Below, piece by piece: positions 29,899-37,830 of a DNA stretch of 64,000 bases. How positions within the stretch are numbered: the stretch's first letter is position 1; each line of letters opens with the position of its first letter. The stretch covers positions 3,131,001 through 3,195,000 of the forward strand of contig CP018226.1 in the NCBI GenBank assembly GCA_016865015.1, read 5' to 3'. Source of the DNA: Rhizobiales bacterium IMCC20636 (GTDB lineage Bacteria; Pseudomonadota; Alphaproteobacteria; Rhizobiales; GCA-2746425). The translations under genes and the position numbers were made by a program. The notes beneath the pieces are model-generated. The model saw only the letters and a program-made list of their open reading frames with translations. It made no database searches and was not told the DNA's origin.

Positions 29899-30561
29899 AT
29901 GCCCCACGCCGTCTATGTGTTCGACGCCTATGGAACACTGTTTGATGTTCATGCAGCGGTCAGAAAACACGCTGAAGCAATTGGTCCTGATGGAGCGCGC
30001 CTGTCTGAAATATGGCGCGCGAAGCAATTGGAGTATTCCTGGGTTCGCGCGCTGATGGGCCGTTATCAGGATTTCTGGGAATTGACCGAACAGGCGCTGG
30101 ATCATGCATTTGCCTGTGTTCCAAGTGCGGACCCAAAATATCGCAAATCGTTGCTGGATGCCTATCGGGAACTGGATTGCTATCCGGAAGTACCATCGGT
30201 ATTGCGGGCACTCAAAGAGCGTGGCGCACTGACAGCAATCCTGTCCAACGGATCTCCCGATATGCTGGAGAGTGCGGTGCGATCTGCGAAAATTGATACG
30301 TTGCTGGATGAGGTTCTCTCTGTCGACGCTCTGCAGACCTACAAGACAGCCGAACCTGTCTATGAAATGGCCACCACGACCTTCCGCGTGTTTCCTGAAG
30401 CCATTTCGTTCCAGTCCTCAAACCGCTGGGATGTGGCGGGCGCAACTGCGTTCGGATTTCGCACGGTGTGGGTGAACCGAACCGGACAGCAGGACGAATA
30501 TCAGGATTTAAGCCCGTCTGCCGTATTGGCGACACTGGATGGACTTCCAGCTCTGGGCTGA
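29899..30561 (+). CDS. L-2-haloacid dehalogenase-type hydrolase (HAD type II)
   Basis: Family: HAD superfamily, haloacid dehalogenase type II, which replace halogen by hydroxyl in short 2-halo acids. The 220-residue protein has the nucleophile Asp9 (VFDAYGTLFD). The other catalytic residues of L-DEX are all present in equivalent spacing: Thr13, Arg40, Ser117 (LSNGSPD), Lys149, Tyr155 (KTAEPVYEM), Ser173, Asn175 and Asp178 (FQSSNRWDVAGATAFG). Sequence is thus consistent with a genuine dehalogenase rather than a generic phosphatase. The natural substrate is unknown; there is no haloacid transporter gene nearby. The gene stands alone ahead of hss. Confidence 0.9.
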   Translation: MPHAVYVFDAYGTLFDVHAAVRKHAEAIGPDGARLSEIWRAKQLEYSWVRALMGRYQDFWELTEQALDHAFACVPSADPKYRKSLLDAYRELDCYPEVPSVLRALKERGALTAILSNGSPDMLESAVRSAKIDTLLDEVLSVDALQTYKTAEPVYEMATTTFRVFPEAISFQSSNRWDVAGATAFGFRTVWVNRTGQQDEYQDLSPSAVLATLDGLPALG

Positions 30562-30733
30562 TTGAACAATGCTCAAGAAAATACCCCTGAAGTTGCCAAT
30601 TATGCGCCGCAAAGGTGAATTCCACCGGAAAGATACAAGTCACAATTGAATTTTTCGGTCTCTGTCCTGTAGGATCGAGACGATCAGAATCTCAATTATC
30701 CCCCATTACCACACTCTCCCGTCGGAAGGCCCT

Positions 30734-32161
30734 ATGTCACAAAAACAGAATTTTGACGGTACGTTCGTATTGCTCGGATTTGGCTCCATCGGCAATGCCG
30801 GTCTGGACATCATCTTCAATCATATCGAATTGGACCCAGACAGGTTTTTTGTGGTTTCGCAGGGCTTCGACCGCGCTGATTTACATCAGGACCATGGTGT
30901 GTCCTTTGTCGAGCGCAGCATCACAGCGCAAAATCTGGATGATGTGCTGGATGGTTTTTTTGAAAATGGGTCCGGAATTCTTGTCAACGCATCGGTAAAT
31001 ATCTGCAGCAAGGCGTTGATCGAATACTGCCAGCGGCGCGACATTCTCTATGTCGATACCAGTTTCGAAATCTGGGCAGACCAGGTTGGTTCAGATGATA
31101 TGATCAATAATGGCGGGCGTTTCAGCAATATTCAGCAAGCCAAACAAAATTTCGCAGGCGGTGCCACTGCCATTACCTGCCACGGAGCCAATCCTGGCAT
31201 TGTCAGCCATTTCGCAAAGCGCCTTATCAGTATGCTGGGACAAGAAGAATTGGGGGCAGATTTCACACCGCCCCGTTCACAGGCTGACTGGGCCGATCTT
31301 GCGGAGAGCCTTGGGATTACCTCTGTCATCATAACCGAGATGGATGATCAGCAATCAAACGCGCCGAGCGCTGAAAAGATGGCTTTGAACACATGGTCCA
31401 TCTATGGGCTTCTGGAAGAAGCCTCGGAGAAAATCTGTGTGCCCTTTGGTACACATGAACCTGTCGACGACGCCATCACCTCTTGTGTATTTGACGCAAG
31501 TGGCGTGCGCTATCTGGAAGTGGATACGCGCTCGGCCCATTATCATTCTCTGGGGTATTCGCCGACGTTCGGCGTGTTCTCGGGCATGGTCATTCCACAT
31601 GTCGAGGCTTTCACCATCGCCAATTTCTTCTCCCGGCGTGATGGTGATGAACTGCTCTATCAACCCACATCCTATTTCTGCTACCAGCCCTGCCCTGCTG
31701 CACTTGATACGGTCACAAATGCGTCCGGCAATGACTGGCATCCCGATGGACCGGTTCGTGTGATGCTGGAAGAGATTGATCGCGGCATTGATTCACTTGG
31801 GGTCATGCTGTTCCGCAGCACGACAGACGAGGTTGTCTGGTATGGCTCGGAAGTCTCAACCGAGATTGCCCACTCCTACAAGACAACAAATGCCACCAGC
31901 CTTCAGGTTATTGCCGGGCTGATTTCCTCCATTCTCTATGTGATGACAAACCCACGTGAAGGTTTGCTGGAGCCGGAAGATCTGGATACGGATTTCATAC
32001 TCGGGATCGCAGAGCCCTATCTTGGCAATGTTTACACCCACAGGGTGAACGCACCCTTCGAGGGAGGGCAGAGCCTGTTCAGTCGGCACCCCCTCTCGAC
32101 ACCGCGTGAAGTGAAGGCTGATCCCCGCTTTATTGGTGTACCACTTGTGGACCGTCGATAA
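30734..32161 (+). CDS. hss: Homospermidine synthase
   Basis: This NAD-dependent enzyme joins two putrescine units (or a spermidine aminobutyl group and putrescine) to sym-homospermidine, the characteristic polyamine of many Hyphomicrobiales. The 475-residue protein has the NAD-binding loop VLLGFGSIGNAGLD (residues 12-25), the VSQGFDRADLH region, the NASVNICSKALIEY and YVDTSFEIW segments, and the HGANPGIVSHFAKR stretch, all typical of bacterial HSS. Length is normal. GGAAGG lies a few bases before the ATG. Downstream are a periplasmic binding protein gene and a GGDEF-EAL gene; whether they sense its product is a hypothesis. Confidence 0.95.
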   Translation: MSQKQNFDGTFVLLGFGSIGNAGLDIIFNHIELDPDRFFVVSQGFDRADLHQDHGVSFVERSITAQNLDDVLDGFFENGSGILVNASVNICSKALIEYCQRRDILYVDTSFEIWADQVGSDDMINNGGRFSNIQQAKQNFAGGATAITCHGANPGIVSHFAKRLISMLGQEELGADFTPPRSQADWADLAESLGITSVIITEMDDQQSNAPSAEKMALNTWSIYGLLEEASEKICVPFGTHEPVDDAITSCVFDASGVRYLEVDTRSAHYHSLGYSPTFGVFSGMVIPHVEAFTIANFFSRRDGDELLYQPTSYFCYQPCPAALDTVTNASGNDWHPDGPVRVMLEEIDRGIDSLGVMLFRSTTDEVVWYGSEVSTEIAHSYKTTNATSLQVIAGLISSILYVMTNPREGLLEPEDLDTDFILGIAEPYLGNVYTHRVNAPFEGGQSLFSRHPLSTPREVKADPRFIGVPLVDRR

Positions 32162-32400
32162 GATCTGTCTGAACTCCTGAGACAGCTTTGCTGAAATAAC
32201 GCGCTTCATCCCCAAATATTGAGCGATCCGAACGGAGTCTATCCGAGAATAAACCGGATCGGGTAAGTTGAAAGCGGCCCCCGAAGTCGCGTTTTATCAA
32301 ATAGCTTATGCATCCCGTCAAATACCGGATGCATCGTTGCGTGAATCTTTACGACTTGAGCGTACGCTCTGCGGAAGATATTAACACCACAGGTGGCACC
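32162..32400. promoter_or_regulatory. Intergenic region between hss and the binding-protein gene
   Basis: A 239-base stretch without a supported gene. It contains short inverted repeats, one CTGTCT...AGACAG near 32165-32185 just after the hss stop and one GATCCG...CGGATC near 32225-32260. Neither is followed by a T-run, so terminator assignment is weak. The promoter of the binding-protein and GGDEF-EAL pair should lie here. Confidence 0.35.
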
Positions 32401-33225
32401 ATGCTCAAAATACGTTTGTCGTCCACGCTTGCCGGACTTGTTTCATCCCTGATAATCAGTGCTTGCAGCGTGGCCCAAGCGGAAACCTTGCAGGTCGGTG
32501 GAACCGGTGTTGCGCTGGGCGGCATGTCCATGATTGCTGAGGCCTTTGAAAAACAAAACCCCGGCACAACGATAACGGTTTTGCCCAGTCTCGGCAGCTC
32601 AGGAGGCGTCAAGGCGCTGATCGCTGGCGCCCTTGATCTGTCTGTTTCCTCGCGCGCGTTGAAAGACGCCGAAGAAGCAAAGGGGGCTCAAGGCACGCTT
32701 TACGCAACAACGCCTCTTGCTCTCGTCACATCGATAGATACAGATGCGGAATCGGTGACGACCGAACAACTTGCAAAGATATACGCCGGGGAACTTTCTG
32801 AATGGCCATCCGGTGAAACAATAAGACTGGTTCTGCGTCCCATGTCCGAAACAGACACAAAAATTGTGGGTGGCCTGTCCGATGCAGTGATGCAAGCAAT
32901 CGAAGAGGCGCATGAGAGACCAGGCTTGCTGAAAGCAACGAATGATCAGGAAAACGCTGAAATGCTTGAACAACTGGCTGGCTCTCTTGGTTCCGTTGCC
33001 ATGGGTCAGATTGCGACCGAAAACAGACGTCTGAAGATTCTGACCCTGAATGGCAATTTGCCAAGACCAGGTGATGTCGGCGGTCAGGACACAGCCTTCA
33101 GCAAGAGTCTGTACATCGTCAAAACCGGGAGTCCATCAAACTTGGCTTCCCAATTCTTCGACTTTGTATTTTCCGAAGAGGCGCGATCCATTCTGATTGC
33201 GACCGACCATGCACCGACGCGGTAA
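32401..33225 (+). CDS. PstS-like periplasmic substrate-binding protein (orphan)
   Basis: The 274-residue precursor has a clear export signal (MLKIRLSSTLAGLVSSLIIS). Cleavage could be by signal peptidase I after VAQA; however IISAC at Cys22 also fits a lipobox, so it might be a lipoprotein. The mature part begins LQVGGTGVALGGMSMIAEAF and continues ITVLPSLGSSGGVKALIAG (in part), then LDLSVSSRALKD, the pattern of the PstS-like phosphate or oxyanion binding fold. No permease or ATPase gene is near. The next gene, a GGDEF-EAL membrane protein, starts seven bases after this stop, so the protein is more likely a sensor partner than a transport component. The ATG at 32401 is chosen because the signal peptide starts there. 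Confidence 0.82.
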   Translation: MLKIRLSSTLAGLVSSLIISACSVAQAETLQVGGTGVALGGMSMIAEAFEKQNPGTTITVLPSLGSSGGVKALIAGALDLSVSSRALKDAEEAKGAQGTLYATTPLALVTSIDTDAESVTTEQLAKIYAGELSEWPSGETIRLVLRPMSETDTKIVGGLSDAVMQAIEEAHERPGLLKATNDQENAEMLEQLAGSLGSVAMGQIATENRRLKILTLNGNLPRPGDVGGQDTAFSKSLYIVKTGSPSNLASQFFDFVFSEEARSILIATDHAPTR

Positions 33226-33232
33226 CCAGTCA

Positions 33233-35167
33233 ATGGAATATTCAAGATCAGAGTCTCTGTCGCAGATATCGCCAGGTGTGGTTCGGTTCTCGACGCTAAT
33301 GGCGCTGTTTATTGCGTTGTTCATCGCCATATTTCCGCCCTCGCTCCACTACTATTACGGAACCAAAACTGAAAAAAGCGTCATTGGTTCAGAAGCAAGC
33401 CTGCGTGCCGAAAACATATCGCAGATCATTGGGCGCAACCCGACCATGTGGGAGTTTGAAACCCTTCGCCTTGATGAGTTGATCCTGGTCAAACTTCAGC
33501 ATAATGAGGTCGAAGCCAATGTCGGGCATTCAGATCATAAAACCGAAATCATAAACGACAATCACAGAATTGAGATTGTGAACACTGACGGTGACATTGT
33601 GACTGCATCGGGTCTCGATGTCGTCCCCAGACCGTTTGTCTCAATCACGCGCCCGCTCCATGATGCCGGGCACGTGGTCGGCACACTCGTTGTGATACAC
33701 AATCTTGCCCCTCTGCTGAAATCTTCCGGTTTGCTGCTGTTGGCAACCTCCATCATCGCCATCGTGATGTTTTTCTTCCTCCGCACATTTCCATTGAAAC
33801 TCCTCAAACGTGCCAGCGAACGCGCATCGTTTCTGGCAAGCCACGATTCTCTGACACGATTACCCAACCGGTCACTCTTCAACGAGTCGTTGTTGCAATC
33901 GATTGCTGATGTTGGTCGTCAGAACACTTCTCTTGCAGTCCTTTGCATCGATCTGGATCATTTCAAGGAGGTCAATGATATTCTTGGGCACGCTGCTGGC
34001 GATGAGTTGCTGAAACAAACCACTGAACGCATGACGGCTACCTTGCGCAGCAATGACGTTCTGGCCCGGCTCGGCGGTGACGAATTTGCTATTGTCCAGA
34101 AACATGTTGAACAACCCACCGGATCTTCAGCTCTGGCCGAACGGCTGATCGCAGCCGTCGCAGAACCGTTCGATCTGGACGGAAGTGAAGTCATTATCGG
34201 ATCCAGCATCGGCATATCAATTTTGACCGAAGGTGAAAAAAGCGATGAGCAGACGATGTTGCGCCATGCAGATATGGCCATGTACAGGGCCAAAGCCGAC
34301 GGCCGGGGAACTTTCCGATATTTTCAGGATGAGATGAACGATGCCTTGATCGCTCGTAAAGAGAAAGAAACAAGCCTCAGGAAAGCATTGCTGGAAAAAG
34401 AATTCGAACTGGTTTACCAGCCTCAAATTGATCTGGAGACCGATGCAATCACAGGCGTCGAAGCCTTGCTGAGATGGAACCACAAAGAAGAAGGTGTGAT
34501 CCAACCCGATGATTTCATCCCGCTGGCGGAAGAGTGTGGTCTCATTGTTCCCATCGGTGAATGGGTCATTCGCCAGGCCTGCGCTGATGCCAAGGATTGG
34601 GGTAATTTGGCCGTTGCGATTAATGTCTCACCCGTTCAATTCCGTCAGGGCCATCTGGTTGAGACTGTTCGAAAAGCACTCGAGGCGGAAGGAATTGACC
34701 CGGCCCGTCTGGAAATCGAGATCACCGAAGGTGTCCTGTTGAGCAACACCGAAGAAACCATAGCAATACTCAGAGATCTGCAGGCATTGGGCGTGAAGAT
34801 TGCGATGGATGATTTTGGTACCGGCTACTCCAGCCTCAGCTATTTGCGGCGTTTTCCGTTTGACAAAATCAAGATTGACAGATCGTTCACGAAAGATCTG
34901 GGCTCATCCACCGAGGCTGACAACATCATTGATGCGGTCATCAAACTTGGTGCGTCCATGGGCATGATCTCCAATGCTGAAGGTGTTGAAACCATCGAGC
35001 AGGCTAATTTCCTGCGAAAACATGGCTGTCAGGAAGTCCAGGGCTTCCACTTCAGCAAACCTTTGCCATCCACCAGTATCTCGGACCTTCTGCAGGACAA
35101 GGATTGGAGCAAATACGAAGATGGCCATCTGGTCGGGTTCGTACCGCAAGACCTGAAAAGCGCCTGA
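33233..35167 (+). CDS. Membrane GGDEF-EAL protein (diguanylate cyclase/phosphodiesterase)
   Basis: The 644-residue protein has transmembrane segments at about residues 17-38 and 166-187, with a periplasmic sensor region of about 125 residues between. The cytosolic part has a GGDEF domain with an intact active site (GGDEF, residues 281-285) and an RxxD inhibitory site five residues before it (RSND). The EAL domain has the EAL motif at 410-412 (GVEALLRW), then DDFGTGYSSLSYL and the NAEGVET motif, all needed for c-di-GMP hydrolysis. Both activities are thus possible. The likely start is the ATG at 33233, seven bases after the binding-protein stop; a longer in-frame start at 33197 overlaps that gene. 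The pair is likely cotranscribed, and a terminator follows. Confidence 0.92.
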   Translation: MEYSRSESLSQISPGVVRFSTLMALFIALFIAIFPPSLHYYYGTKTEKSVIGSEASLRAENISQIIGRNPTMWEFETLRLDELILVKLQHNEVEANVGHSDHKTEIINDNHRIEIVNTDGDIVTASGLDVVPRPFVSITRPLHDAGHVVGTLVVIHNLAPLLKSSGLLLLATSIIAIVMFFFLRTFPLKLLKRASERASFLASHDSLTRLPNRSLFNESLLQSIADVGRQNTSLAVLCIDLDHFKEVNDILGHAAGDELLKQTTERMTATLRSNDVLARLGGDEFAIVQKHVEQPTGSSALAERLIAAVAEPFDLDGSEVIIGSSIGISILTEGEKSDEQTMLRHADMAMYRAKADGRGTFRYFQDEMNDALIARKEKETSLRKALLEKEFELVYQPQIDLETDAITGVEALLRWNHKEEGVIQPDDFIPLAEECGLIVPIGEWVIRQACADAKDWGNLAVAINVSPVQFRQGHLVETVRKALEAEGIDPARLEIEITEGVLLSNTEETIAILRDLQALGVKIAMDDFGTGYSSLSYLRRFPFDKIKIDRSFTKDLGSSTEADNIIDAVIKLGASMGMISNAEGVETIEQANFLRKHGCQEVQGFHFSKPLPSTSISDLLQDKDWSKYEDGHLVGFVPQDLKSA

Positions 35168-35245
35168 TGTAACGGTTACACTCTGCTTTGATGTCGTCGG
35201 GTAGCATTTTCGCCCGTCAAGACATGTTGCAGATTTGCGAAATTG

Positions 35246-35279
35246 AACCTTGTCGAGAACTCTCGATAAGGTTTTTTTC
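35246..35279 (+). terminator. Rho-independent terminator after the GGDEF-EAL gene
   Basis: The 12-base stem AACCTTGTCGAG (35246-35257) pairs with CTCGATAAGGTT (35262-35273) with one G-U pair, around a four-base loop, followed by six more T. It lies about 80 bases after the stop codon and ends the binding-protein and GGDEF-EAL unit. Confidence 0.85.
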
Positions 35280-35349: not shown

Positions 35350-36516
35350 ATGACATCACAGCACAATCGAAAACCCGCACGCTCCACTCGCATTGCACAG
35401 GCCCTGCGATTTGTGGATGAGGAAACCGGAGCGGTGGTTCCGCCCATTCAACCTGCGGCGACCTATGCGCGCGATGAGAATTATGACATCCGGCAACCTT
35501 ACTGGTATCGCCGCGACGGCAACCAGACCACAGCCCACGCAGAAGCGATCATCGCGGAACTGGAAGAAGCAACTGAATCCCTGCTGTTCGCCTCCGGCAT
35601 GTCGGCAGCCACGGCAGTCATAGACCATCTGCCGGCGGGCGCACATGTGGTGATCCCACGCGTCATGTATCATGGTGTGCTGGCGCAATTTCAGAAATAT
35701 CATGCCCAGAAACGTCTTGAGATCAGCTATTATGGCGCCGGCAATCTTGACGAACTGGCTGCCGCCACGCGCAACGGCGAGACGCAGTTGGTCTGGGTGG
35801 AAACGCCCAACAATCCCGAATGGGACGTGACCGACATCGCGGCGGCGGCGCAAATTGCGCATGATGCAGGCGCACTGCTGCTGACCGACTGTACCGGCAC
35901 ACCGCCCTGCTCTACCCGCGCCCTCAATTTTGGTGCAGATATCTCGTTTCATTCAGCAACCAAATACCTCAACGGACATTCCGATATCACAGCGGGCGTG
36001 TTGTCCATTCGGGAAGTCGCCCCGTTCTGGGAAGACATTGCCAGGGTGCGTAATTTGCAGGGCACGGTGCTGCATTCATTTGACGCCTGGTTACTGATCC
36101 GCGGCATGCGCACCCTGTTTCTGCGCGTTGAAAAAGCCACTGCAAATGCGCTGGCCATTGCCCGCCATTTTGAAAACCATCCCGCATTGGAGGCCGTACT
36201 TTATCCCGGACTGCCATCGCATCCCGGACATGCGGTCGCGCGGCGGCAGACGGACGGGCAGTTTGGCGGCATGATGTCCATCATTGTCAAAGGCAGCGAA
36301 CAAACGGCCATTGATGTCACGCGCTTTTGCGAGTTGTTTTACCCGGCCACGTCACTGGGCGGTGTGGAGTCTCTGGTTGAACACCGCAAGACGGTCTCCG
36401 GCCCGAATTTTCCTGTGCACCCCCGACTTCTTCGGCTCTCCATTGGCATCGAAGATGCGGATGATCTGATATATGATCTGGAACAGGCATTGGCGCGGGC
36501 AAATCAACAGGCCTGA
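35350..36516 (+). CDS. Cystathionine gamma-synthase family PLP enzyme
   Basis: Fold type I PLP enzyme of the Cys/Met metabolism family (trans-sulfuration group), 388 residues. The PLP lysine is Lys205 in SFHSATKYLNGHSDI, the ring-binding Asp180 lies in LLLTDCTGTPP, and ETPNNPEWDV precedes it. The C-terminal SLGGVESLVEHRK and LRLSIGIEDADDLI segments are family-typical. Activities in the family include cystathionine gamma-synthase, O-acetylhomoserine sulfhydrylase, cystathionine beta/gamma-lyase and methionine gamma-lyase; I cannot separate them by eye. The ATG at 35350 is preferred to one nine codons upstream. It precedes an aminotransferase and a gamma-glutamylcyclotransferase gene on the same strand, hinting at sulfur amino acid or glutathione turnover. 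Confidence 0.85.
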   Translation: MTSQHNRKPARSTRIAQALRFVDEETGAVVPPIQPAATYARDENYDIRQPYWYRRDGNQTTAHAEAIIAELEEATESLLFASGMSAATAVIDHLPAGAHVVIPRVMYHGVLAQFQKYHAQKRLEISYYGAGNLDELAAATRNGETQLVWVETPNNPEWDVTDIAAAAQIAHDAGALLLTDCTGTPPCSTRALNFGADISFHSATKYLNGHSDITAGVLSIREVAPFWEDIARVRNLQGTVLHSFDAWLLIRGMRTLFLRVEKATANALAIARHFENHPALEAVLYPGLPSHPGHAVARRQTDGQFGGMMSIIVKGSEQTAIDVTRFCELFYPATSLGGVESLVEHRKTVSGPNFPVHPRLLRLSIGIEDADDLIYDLEQALARANQQA

Positions 36517-36618: not shown

Positions 36619-37830
36619 ATGGACTGGGAGCACATACTGGCGCCAAGAATGCAGCGGATGAACGCGTCGGAAATCCGCGAATTGCTGAAATTGCTGGATC
36701 AGCCTGACATCATTTCATTTGCAGGCGGCATTCCTGATCCGGCTCTGTTCCCGGCAAAGGCGTTTCAGGACGCGTTTTCCAGCATCCTGTCCGGCGGGCG
36801 ACAGGAACAGGCTCTGCAATATTCTGTCTCCGAAGGGCATATGCCCTTGAGACGATGGATTGTGGAGCACATGGCACAGTTCGGCGTTGCCTGCACGGTC
36901 GACAATATCCTGATCACATCGGGCTCCCAGCAGGCACTCGATTATCTGGGAAAGCTGTTTCTTGCGCCAAAAGATACAGCGCTTGTGACCTGGCCGACCT
37001 ATCTGGGTGCGCTGGGCGCATTCAATGCTTATGAACCCGTCTATGACCGTCTGTTACCGACAAGCAACCGTCTGCCGGAAGATTATCGCGAGACCGCAAA
37101 GGCCAAGGGCGGCGCGGTGAAATTCGCCTATTGTTCGGTTGATTTTGCCAATCCCACCGGCGAGACACTGGATGGTTCTGCACGGCGGGATATCTTGCGT
37201 CTGGCTGAGGAGCTGGACATCGCTGTCATCGAGGATGCTGCTTACCAGTCCCTGCGTTATGATGGCGAAGCGCATCTGCCAATCCTGGCGCTGGAAATCG
37301 AACAGCGCGGCACCATTGAAGACTGCCGCACCATCTATTGCGGCAGTTTTTCCAAAACGCTGGCCCCCGGCCTTCGGGTTGGTTGGGTGTGCGCTGCAAA
37401 GCCGGTGATCTCCAGATTGGTGTTGATCAAACAATCTTCAGACCTGCACACATCAACGCTCAACCAGATGGCGATTGCTGATGTGGCAACGGCCTGTTTT
37501 GACGAACAGGTGGCCAAAGCAAAGGCTGTCTATGGGGCAAGACGCGACAGAATGTTGCAAGCTCTGGAAACCCATATGCCAGAGGGCGTGACATGGACGC
37601 GGCCTGAAGGAGGCATGTTTATCTGGGTGACCCTGCCAAAACATCTGGATGGCACCGAGTTGCTTGCAAAATCCATCAAAGCGCAAAAGCTCGCCTTCGT
37701 GCCAGGAAAGGCGTTTTATGCTGACGGATCGGGCGGAAATACGCTGCGACTCAATTTCACGCGCACGGATGACAGCGTCATCGATGAGGGGATCAGGCGA
37801 CTTGGCGTCGTGGTGAGAGACGTGATGTGA
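36619..37830 (+). CDS. PLP-dependent aminotransferase (class I, 2-aminoadipate-type)
   Basis: Fold type I aminotransferase of 403 residues, of the group that includes 2-aminoadipate, aromatic and kynurenine aminotransferases and lacks the GntR domain of MocR proteins. Seen: SFAGGIPDPALFP near residue 33, SGSQQALDYLGK (PLP contacts), DFANPTGETL, IEDAAYQSLRYD, and the PLP lysine Lys246 in YCGSFSKTLAPGLRVGW. The C-terminal PEGGMFIWVTLP and LRLNFTR (substrate carboxylate Arg) are present. The substrate is unknown. It is preceded by a palindromic site and overlaps the gamma-glutamylcyclotransferase gene by four bases (GTGA). Confidence 0.88.
   Translation: MDWEHILAPRMQRMNASEIRELLKLLDQPDIISFAGGIPDPALFPAKAFQDAFSSILSGGRQEQALQYSVSEGHMPLRRWIVEHMAQFGVACTVDNILITSGSQQALDYLGKLFLAPKDTALVTWPTYLGALGAFNAYEPVYDRLLPTSNRLPEDYRETAKAKGGAVKFAYCSVDFANPTGETLDGSARRDILRLAEELDIAVIEDAAYQSLRYDGEAHLPILALEIEQRGTIEDCRTIYCGSFSKTLAPGLRVGWVCAAKPVISRLVLIKQSSDLHTSTLNQMAIADVATACFDEQVAKAKAVYGARRDRMLQALETHMPEGVTWTRPEGGMFIWVTLPKHLDGTELLAKSIKAQKLAFVPGKAFYADGSGGNTLRLNFTRTDDSVIDEGIRRLGVVVRDVM

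Follow-up and report, generated by a model that had tools for sequence, protein, structure and literature searches.

Pairing of a PstS-like periplasmic binding protein with a GGDEF-EAL receptor: a probable extracellular sensor with varied outputs

What a phosphate-type binding protein does when it is encoded beside a membrane receptor is the question raised by a locus of Rhizobiales bacterium IMCC20636, analyzed here within a stretch of 64,000 nucleotides (contig CP018226.1, positions 3,131,001 to 3,195,000; the window). Plus-strand open reading frames (ORFs) run from hss, a homospermidine synthase gene, through the gene for an exported PstS-like periplasmic binding protein (PBP) to that for a GGDEF-EAL receptor with two transmembrane (TM) segments. 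The last two are seven bases apart (PBP stop ending at 33225, receptor ATG at 33233), and no permease or ATPase genes were seen among the ORFs between 26 and 40 kb (six proteins by Pfam, the others by eye). A preliminary description had reported both this layout and the lack of a local permease or ATPase; the layout is borne out by ORFs, Pfam and hydropathy, and the lack by the ORFs just mentioned. The analysis indicates that the PBP and the receptor probably act as one outside-to-inside sensor of an extracellular ligand acting on cyclic di-GMP (c-di-GMP), and the pair looks like an interchangeable sensor module composed of a binding protein and a docking domain.

Conservation of the pair

The pairing is conserved far beyond the window. 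Receptor-only searches were run with queries lacking the cytoplasmic part, on samples that overlap and each include the window genome, so that their counts are not independent. The first of them, using the N-terminal 186 residues against 297 genomes of the order, found 12 genomes, and a PBP homologue adjoins the receptor in 12/12. As PF12849, the PBP family, occurs at 3 places in the 4.79 Mb window genome, a neighbour of this kind is expected by chance about once per thousand genes (assuming about 4,500 genes), thus the adjacency lies far beyond chance. A profile search of a phylum sample (398 genomes) gave 22 matches with the PBP adjacent in 20, a class sample (385 genomes) gave 16 with the PBP adjacent in 13, and in a sample of one family of the order (61 genomes) the PBP stands beside both strong matches. 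When a 95-row profile was run against the 297 genomes of the order, 33 matched at E <= 0.01 and 16 at E < 1e-20; all 16 strong matches adjoin a binding protein, which is a PBP_like_2 protein in 14 (divergently oriented in L167) and a Peripla_BP_4 protein in 2.

The search in the opposite direction, with a pattern from 12 PBPs and over named genomes, gave 71 loci, and the receptor N-terminal domain lies on the directly adjacent gene in every one (70 downstream; 1 upstream, L099). These loci span five phyla: Pseudomonadota (Alpha, Beta and Gamma), Thermodesulfobacteriota, Nitrospirota, Nitrospinota and Myxococcota; five of the genomes are common to the order search, and L081 and L082 share gene layout and scores. 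The preliminary description had named non-conserved adjacency in related genomes as grounds for giving up its proposal, and for the PBP and receptor such grounds are absent.

The module is sporadic: the order, phylum and class searches found it in 12/297, 22/398 and 16/385 genomes, respectively. Phaeobacter sp. CECT 5382 carries a copy whose identity to that of the window (PBP 64%, receptor 66%) falls little short of the values for the congeners (65–70% and 67–69%), and in a quick PBP tree one starred group is made up of five rows, those of the window, of its congeners and of two Roseobacteraceae; together, these sequence comparisons suggest spread of the module by horizontal transfer. Some draft records split module genes into two frames, perhaps as pseudogenes or through sequencing errors: the PBP gene in L067, L123 and L131, and the receptor gene in L123 and L126.

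Alignments excluded six copies or near-copies (L082, L086, L092, L112, L128 and L129). The alignment of 92 PBPs also excluded L043 (a repeat of the window) and, as broken or short, the PBPs of L055, L067, L123 and L131, that of 95 receptor domains excluded L043, L123 and the weak L063 and L064, and the set of 64 of the 71 receptors analyzed with Pfam excluded the same six and the broken L123.

The proposed docking domain, its outputs and its binding proteins

Two hydrophobic segments of the receptor (residues about 15–36 and 159–183) enclose about 120 periplasmic residues; the GGDEF and EAL domains follow, and no HAMP match was obtained with Pfam. As the GGDEF, RSND (I-site), EAL and DDFGTGYSSL motifs are intact, the receptor can be expected both to synthesize and to degrade c-di-GMP. 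In the AlphaFold2 model of the periplasmic docking domain (mean pLDDT 89), TM1 continues into a long helix (14–68), followed by a second helix (77–95), four strands and a helix (159–198) of which TM2 is part. This is the architecture of extracytoplasmic PAS/Cache domains, in which a long N-terminal helix and a PAS-like sheet lie between two TM segments. Fold comparison with VIA matched it to such domains, including WalK, CitA and the LapD orthologue CdgS9, at Z 8–11, a middling range for which the tool warns of common arrangements; LuxQ periplasmic domains are among the matches at Z 8.0–8.3, and Z of about 8 is near background. Foldseek alone gave weak matches. No named Pfam sensor family exceeded its cut-off in any of the 95 docking domains, where matches were scattered (best E 0.001). 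Trp73, part of an NPxxW stretch, is invariant in all 95 and, judging from the helix order in the model, should lie far from the membrane.

The domain is joined to different outputs. Profiles assigned the receptors of the 71 loci to GGDEF-EAL proteins in 36 cases and histidine kinases in 31, leaving 4 unassigned; the drive of kinases nearly as often as of GGDEF-EAL proteins goes beyond the preliminary description. One of the four (L081) is a PAS-GAF-HD-GYP protein by Pfam and L082 is its near-copy, and in the other two (L122 and L126) the N-terminal domain is a separate frame followed by GGDEF-EAL. Among the 64 receptors Pfam recognized GGDEF in 32, EAL in 32, HATPase_c in 28, a response regulator in 10 and HD_5 in 1. 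One N-terminal domain is thus found with GGDEF-EAL, histidine kinase, hybrid kinase and HD-GYP outputs, and this variety on one input half points to a general plug, or interchangeable module. On the quick tree of the 92 PBPs the labels change between histidine kinase and GGDEF-EAL 11 times (30.5 in shuffles), and outputs have likely been exchanged repeatedly during evolution. At L122:6779-9099 the docking domain is its own frame of 248 amino acids, which overlaps the separate GGDEF-EAL frame that follows by four bases.

The binding protein is also exchanged. In the two Peripla_BP_4 cases the partner is of sugar type (L203:7901-8905 and L204:7886-8809) and starts at the receptor stop or 8 bases after it; both receptors keep the Trp of NPxxW and are without the Arg that follows. 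In the family of one genome with such a pair (G155), no further Peripla_BP_4-partnered receptor besides that of G155 was found among 20 genomes. These two exchanges of the PBP for a Peripla_BP_4 protein are the best indication (n = 2) that binding proteins dock on this domain. Opinion is evenly balanced on a broader view, in which the unnamed domain would be a general adaptor from binding protein to output, taking re-tooled PstS-type or sugar-type partners and driving GGDEF-EAL, histidine kinase, hybrid kinase or HD-GYP outputs in at least five phyla, with NPxxW recognition that might serve unrelated binding proteins.

Ligand, mechanism and competing explanations

The PBP belongs to PF12849 (PBP_like_2, E 9.1e-26). 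PstS models are its next best matches in NCBIfam, at 72.5 bits, below the PstS-family cut-off of 206.6 (TIGR02136). Its AlphaFold2 model (mean pLDDT 95.9) has the PstS fold; in comparison with the PDB, phosphate-binding or putative phosphate-binding proteins, 4n13, 4gd5 and 4q8r among them, make up the first 40 of the best 50 matches listed. The most conserved positions align with the PstS ligand site (GxG, GSxG, Arg59 and Arg120), and both Arg are unvarying in 92/92 aligned PBPs. The S-G-T loop of PstS, which holds phosphate, follows the conserved Arg in the relatives 4gd5 (titled with bound phosphate) and 1twy; in the window PBP it is replaced by E-T-D, and in most of the 92 relatives by [E/D]-x-D, with position 124 acidic (E/D) in 90/92 and position 126 acidic (D/E) in 84/92. 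Because of this replacement free phosphate is an unlikely ligand on sequence grounds, and the phosphate option of the preliminary description is weakened accordingly. The two Arg together with the acids of the loop suggest a ligand bearing both charges; a small molecule with an anionic and an amine group, rather than free phosphate, is offered as a tentative guess.

In the mechanism proposed, the PstS-like PBP would no longer serve a transporter and would bind an extracellular small molecule in the periplasm. The closed PBP may then dock on the PAS/Cache-like domain of the receptor, probably near the NPxxW stretch, thereby shifting TM2 and the helix behind it. Movement of TM2 would alter the balance between GGDEF cyclase and EAL phosphodiesterase, and hence cellular c-di-GMP, and in other bacteria the same input half would drive histidine kinases, hybrid kinases or an HD-GYP protein. 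The physical docking of the PBP, its ligand and the direction of the enzymatic change are the three steps that we infer.

Several observations weigh against this sensor or against parts of it. In the phylum sample two weak receptor-like matches (L063 and L064) are without an adjacent PBP. Among the class exceptions, a divergent gene with a borderline match to NMT1 is all that L214 has, no PBP was seen at L218, and L220 has a phosphonate-type, PhnD-like substrate-binding protein (SBP) beside another kinase, one gene away. A further 17 order-wide genomes matched at E 2e-5 to 0.01 only, and no PBP flanks the 14 places given as loci; these matches, mostly partial and in proteins of about 1,000 amino acids, are probably other PAS/Cache proteins. 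Matches to ABC (ATP-binding cassette) ATPases occur in 18/82 neighbour loci; their distance and strand vary. The correlation of PBP and receptor-domain distances (Mantel r 0.78, against at most 0.10 in 2000 permutations; n = 92) speaks for the pair, but tight linkage of any two genes would lead one to expect it. On well-supported branches just one change of output is required, so repeated exchange is likely rather than proven, and the acids of the loop could have a structural instead of a ligand-binding role. As a side observation, three genes in a row at L225:598-6869 encode a receptor-like kinase, matched weakly, then a hybrid kinase and an SBP of PhnD-like, phosphonate type.

Of the explanations that compete with this sensor, the least improbable is a receptor for phosphate, or for arsenate or phosphonate, in which the PBP reports an external oxyanion to c-di-GMP. 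The fold and sequence kinship with PstS, the retained G-S-S/G-G loop and the Arg shared with PstS relatives speak for it; the loss of S-G-T in favor of [E/D]-x-D, the sub-threshold PstS score and another PstS elsewhere in the genome, with pst/pho-like neighbours (named by eye), make it unlikely. A PBP that binds no ligand and acts as an envelope-state sensor or constitutive clamp would fit the lack of a known ligand and a loop unlike that of PstS, and is distinctly improbable, as the residues aligned with the PstS ligand site are the most conserved and the sugar-type SBPs of two relatives fit a ligand input. Orphan SBPs that borrow permeases do exist, and the PBP could on that precedent be a transport receptor for a permease encoded elsewhere, with its neighbourhood incidental. 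Such a role is hardly credible given 71/71 adjacency over five phyla and permease matches, using the ABC systems of the genome itself as queries, in only 2/82 loci (L104 and L116); its own PstC/PstA-like proteins found no match near the pair in the 82 loci except a weak one at L116.

Another explanation is a polyamine sensor, in which the PBP would bind homospermidine from the hss product in a form of self-sensing, as NspS does with norspermidine. In its favor, hss adjoins the pair in the window and in the congener G002, where gene order is the same, and the acidic loop could suit a cation. The hss product is closest to solved homospermidine synthases (2ph5, E 3.1e-81; 4plp, 6.1e-61), with only Sacchrp_dh_NADP recognized by Pfam and a weak carboxynorspermidine synthase match far below cut-off in NCBIfam. 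Within the flanks fetched, however, just one of the 82 other neighbour loci (that of G002) has hss close to the pair, and the pair adjoins hss in 2 of the 3 congeners carrying it and in none of the more distant loci; hss is present at E <= 1e-20 in 16/41 related genomes. A HAD-hss block (window 29899-32161) is kept in G001 and G002 at 87–95% identity, independently of the pair: the 10 kb fetched from G001 contain the block and not the pair, and searches of the whole G001 genome gave neither this PBP nor this receptor domain. In G003 the pair lies at 1.26 Mb and hss at 4.04 Mb. Because G001 has hss without the pair and G003 separates the two by 2.8 Mb, the tie to hss made in the preliminary description fails; hss appears to be beside the pair by accident, and the polyamine module was rejected on synteny. 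The PBP is not PotD/PotF-like, its family being PF12849 and its next best models PstS, two invariant Arg would be odd for a polyamine site, and a terminator-like site lies between hss and the pair, counted as weak because the region has 5 such sites against 3.1 expected. The polyamine sensor is accordingly very improbable. The pyridoxal phosphate (PLP) enzymes at 35353-36516 and 36619-37830 were considered as a ScrA-like signal maker and rejected, as they do not recur in the 82 neighbour loci. Among the 25 largest clusters of neighbour proteins besides the pair, ABC ATPases occur in 11 loci, one cluster in 6, and the rest are smaller.

Relation to known systems and wider meaning

The features of the window locus are collected in Table 1.

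Table 1. Features of the hss–PBP–receptor locus, in window coordinates.
Feature	Position	Strand	Basis
hss, homospermidine synthase; neighbour, outside the module	30734..32161	+	ORF, solved relatives
Weak terminator-like hairpin, hss/PBP gap	32274..32290	+	Hairpin scan
PstS-like periplasmic binding protein (PBP_like_2), 274 amino acids with signal peptide	32401..33225	+	ORF, Pfam, NCBIfam, model
PBP signal peptide, residues 1–26	32401..32478	+	By eye, from sequence
PBP Arg59 (mature numbering)	32653..32655	+	92/92 aligned PBPs
PBP Arg120	32836..32838	+	92/92 aligned PBPs
PBP E-T-D (124–126), aligned with PstS S-G-T loop	32848..32856	+	Alignment
Two-TM GGDEF-EAL receptor, 644 amino acids	33233..35167	+	ORF, Pfam, hydropathy
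Receptor TM1, residues about 15–36	33275..33340	+	Hydropathy, model
Receptor periplasmic domain, residues about 37–158, extracytoplasmic PAS/Cache-like	33341..33706	+	Model, fold comparison; no Pfam family
Receptor Trp73 of NPxxW stretch	33449..33451	+	Invariant in 95 aligned domains
Receptor TM2, residues about 159–183	33707..33781	+	Hydropathy, model
Receptor GGDEF domain with GGDEF and I-site-like RSND	33836..34309	+	Pfam, motifs
Receptor EAL domain, motifs intact	34373..35062	+	Pfam, motifs
Terminator-like hairpin 3' of receptor gene, 13 pairs and T run	35245..35274	+	Hairpin scan

The module looks as if it works like NspS-MbaA or PruR-DcpA, yet it fails defining features of these systems that were tested. 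As in NspS-MbaA of Vibrio cholerae and Sinorhizobium meliloti, a binding protein gene lies next to a two-TM GGDEF-EAL gene (PMC9993111, in the part available), and the window likewise has an adjacent SBP gene and a GGDEF-EAL output with a TM-flanked periplasmic domain. NspS is PotD-like, whereas the window protein is PstS-like; S. meliloti MbaA has periplasmic residues 24–256, about 230 in all, and a HAMP domain according to the same partial source (PMC9993111), in contrast to the much shorter periplasmic stretch and missing HAMP match here. Of the analogue of NspS-MbaA with a PstS-like receptor that the preliminary description envisaged, the pair and its conserved adjacency therefore stand, with parts that differ from NspS-MbaA, and the link to homospermidine synthase does not. 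In PruR-DcpA of Agrobacterium tumefaciens, likewise, one operon of two genes encodes a periplasmic binding protein together with a diguanylate cyclase-phosphodiesterase that has a periplasmic docking domain, but in the sections of PMC13259868 consulted PruR is a SUOX-like, pterin-binding protein (PF00174-like) of about 170 amino acids, unlike the PBP_like_2 protein of PstS fold. Between the docking domain and the one PruR partner compared, from Vibrio, no profile similarity was found, and the PF00174 loci of five genomes have no GGDEF or EAL neighbour within their flanks.

In ScrABC of Vibrio parahaemolyticus the periplasmic binding protein ScrB acts on the GGDEF-EAL protein ScrC, and the signal is made by the aminotransferase ScrA of the same operon (PMC11315295, as far as its available text goes). 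No such recurrent gene is found here: the upstream gene is hss, and the downstream PLP-enzyme genes do not recur. In a V. campbellii replicon no scrABC was recognized within 1.5 kb on either side of the 15 EAL places. Two other possible pairs come from V. campbellii: at L200:2656-4253 a PruR-like protein (weak PF00174) by a GGDEF protein whose N-terminal stretch measures about 210 residues, possibly of PruR type, and at L138:2-2253 an SBP_bac_3 protein overlapping the start of a GGDEF-EAL frame of 437 amino acids, possibly SBP-driven. In LuxPQ, TorTS and other SBP-dependent histidine kinases the periplasmic part of the kinase serves as docking site for the binding protein, LuxP being a sugar-type SBP; the likeness to these systems is the near-background fold match with LuxQ given above. 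PstS of phosphate ABC transporters (TIGR02136, PF12849) shares fold and family with the window PBP, which differs in having no adjacent pst genes, in its replaced S-G-T and in scoring far below the PstS-family cut-off.

In the portion available of a 2022 review of c-di-GMP sensing, SBP_bac_3 is the only family of the PBP clan studied in c-di-GMP networks (PMC8846402), and a term search found 'binding protein', 'PBP' and 'PstS' absent from the main text of a survey covering the c-di-GMP genes of five orders of Alphaproteobacteria (PMC9756655). Among the matches listed from the open-access literature, no description was found of a PstS-like protein with a GGDEF/EAL or kinase partner; the module is broadly spread and, as far as searched, has no name there. 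It enlarges the small known group of c-di-GMP receptors driven by binding proteins with an example that is widespread and differently built. The module also suggests that PstS-like proteins annotated for phosphate transport may instead be signal receptors. Its natural set of different inputs and outputs on one docking domain would be useful for understanding how binding proteins communicate with membrane receptors and for assigning roles to many 'phosphate-binding' genes.

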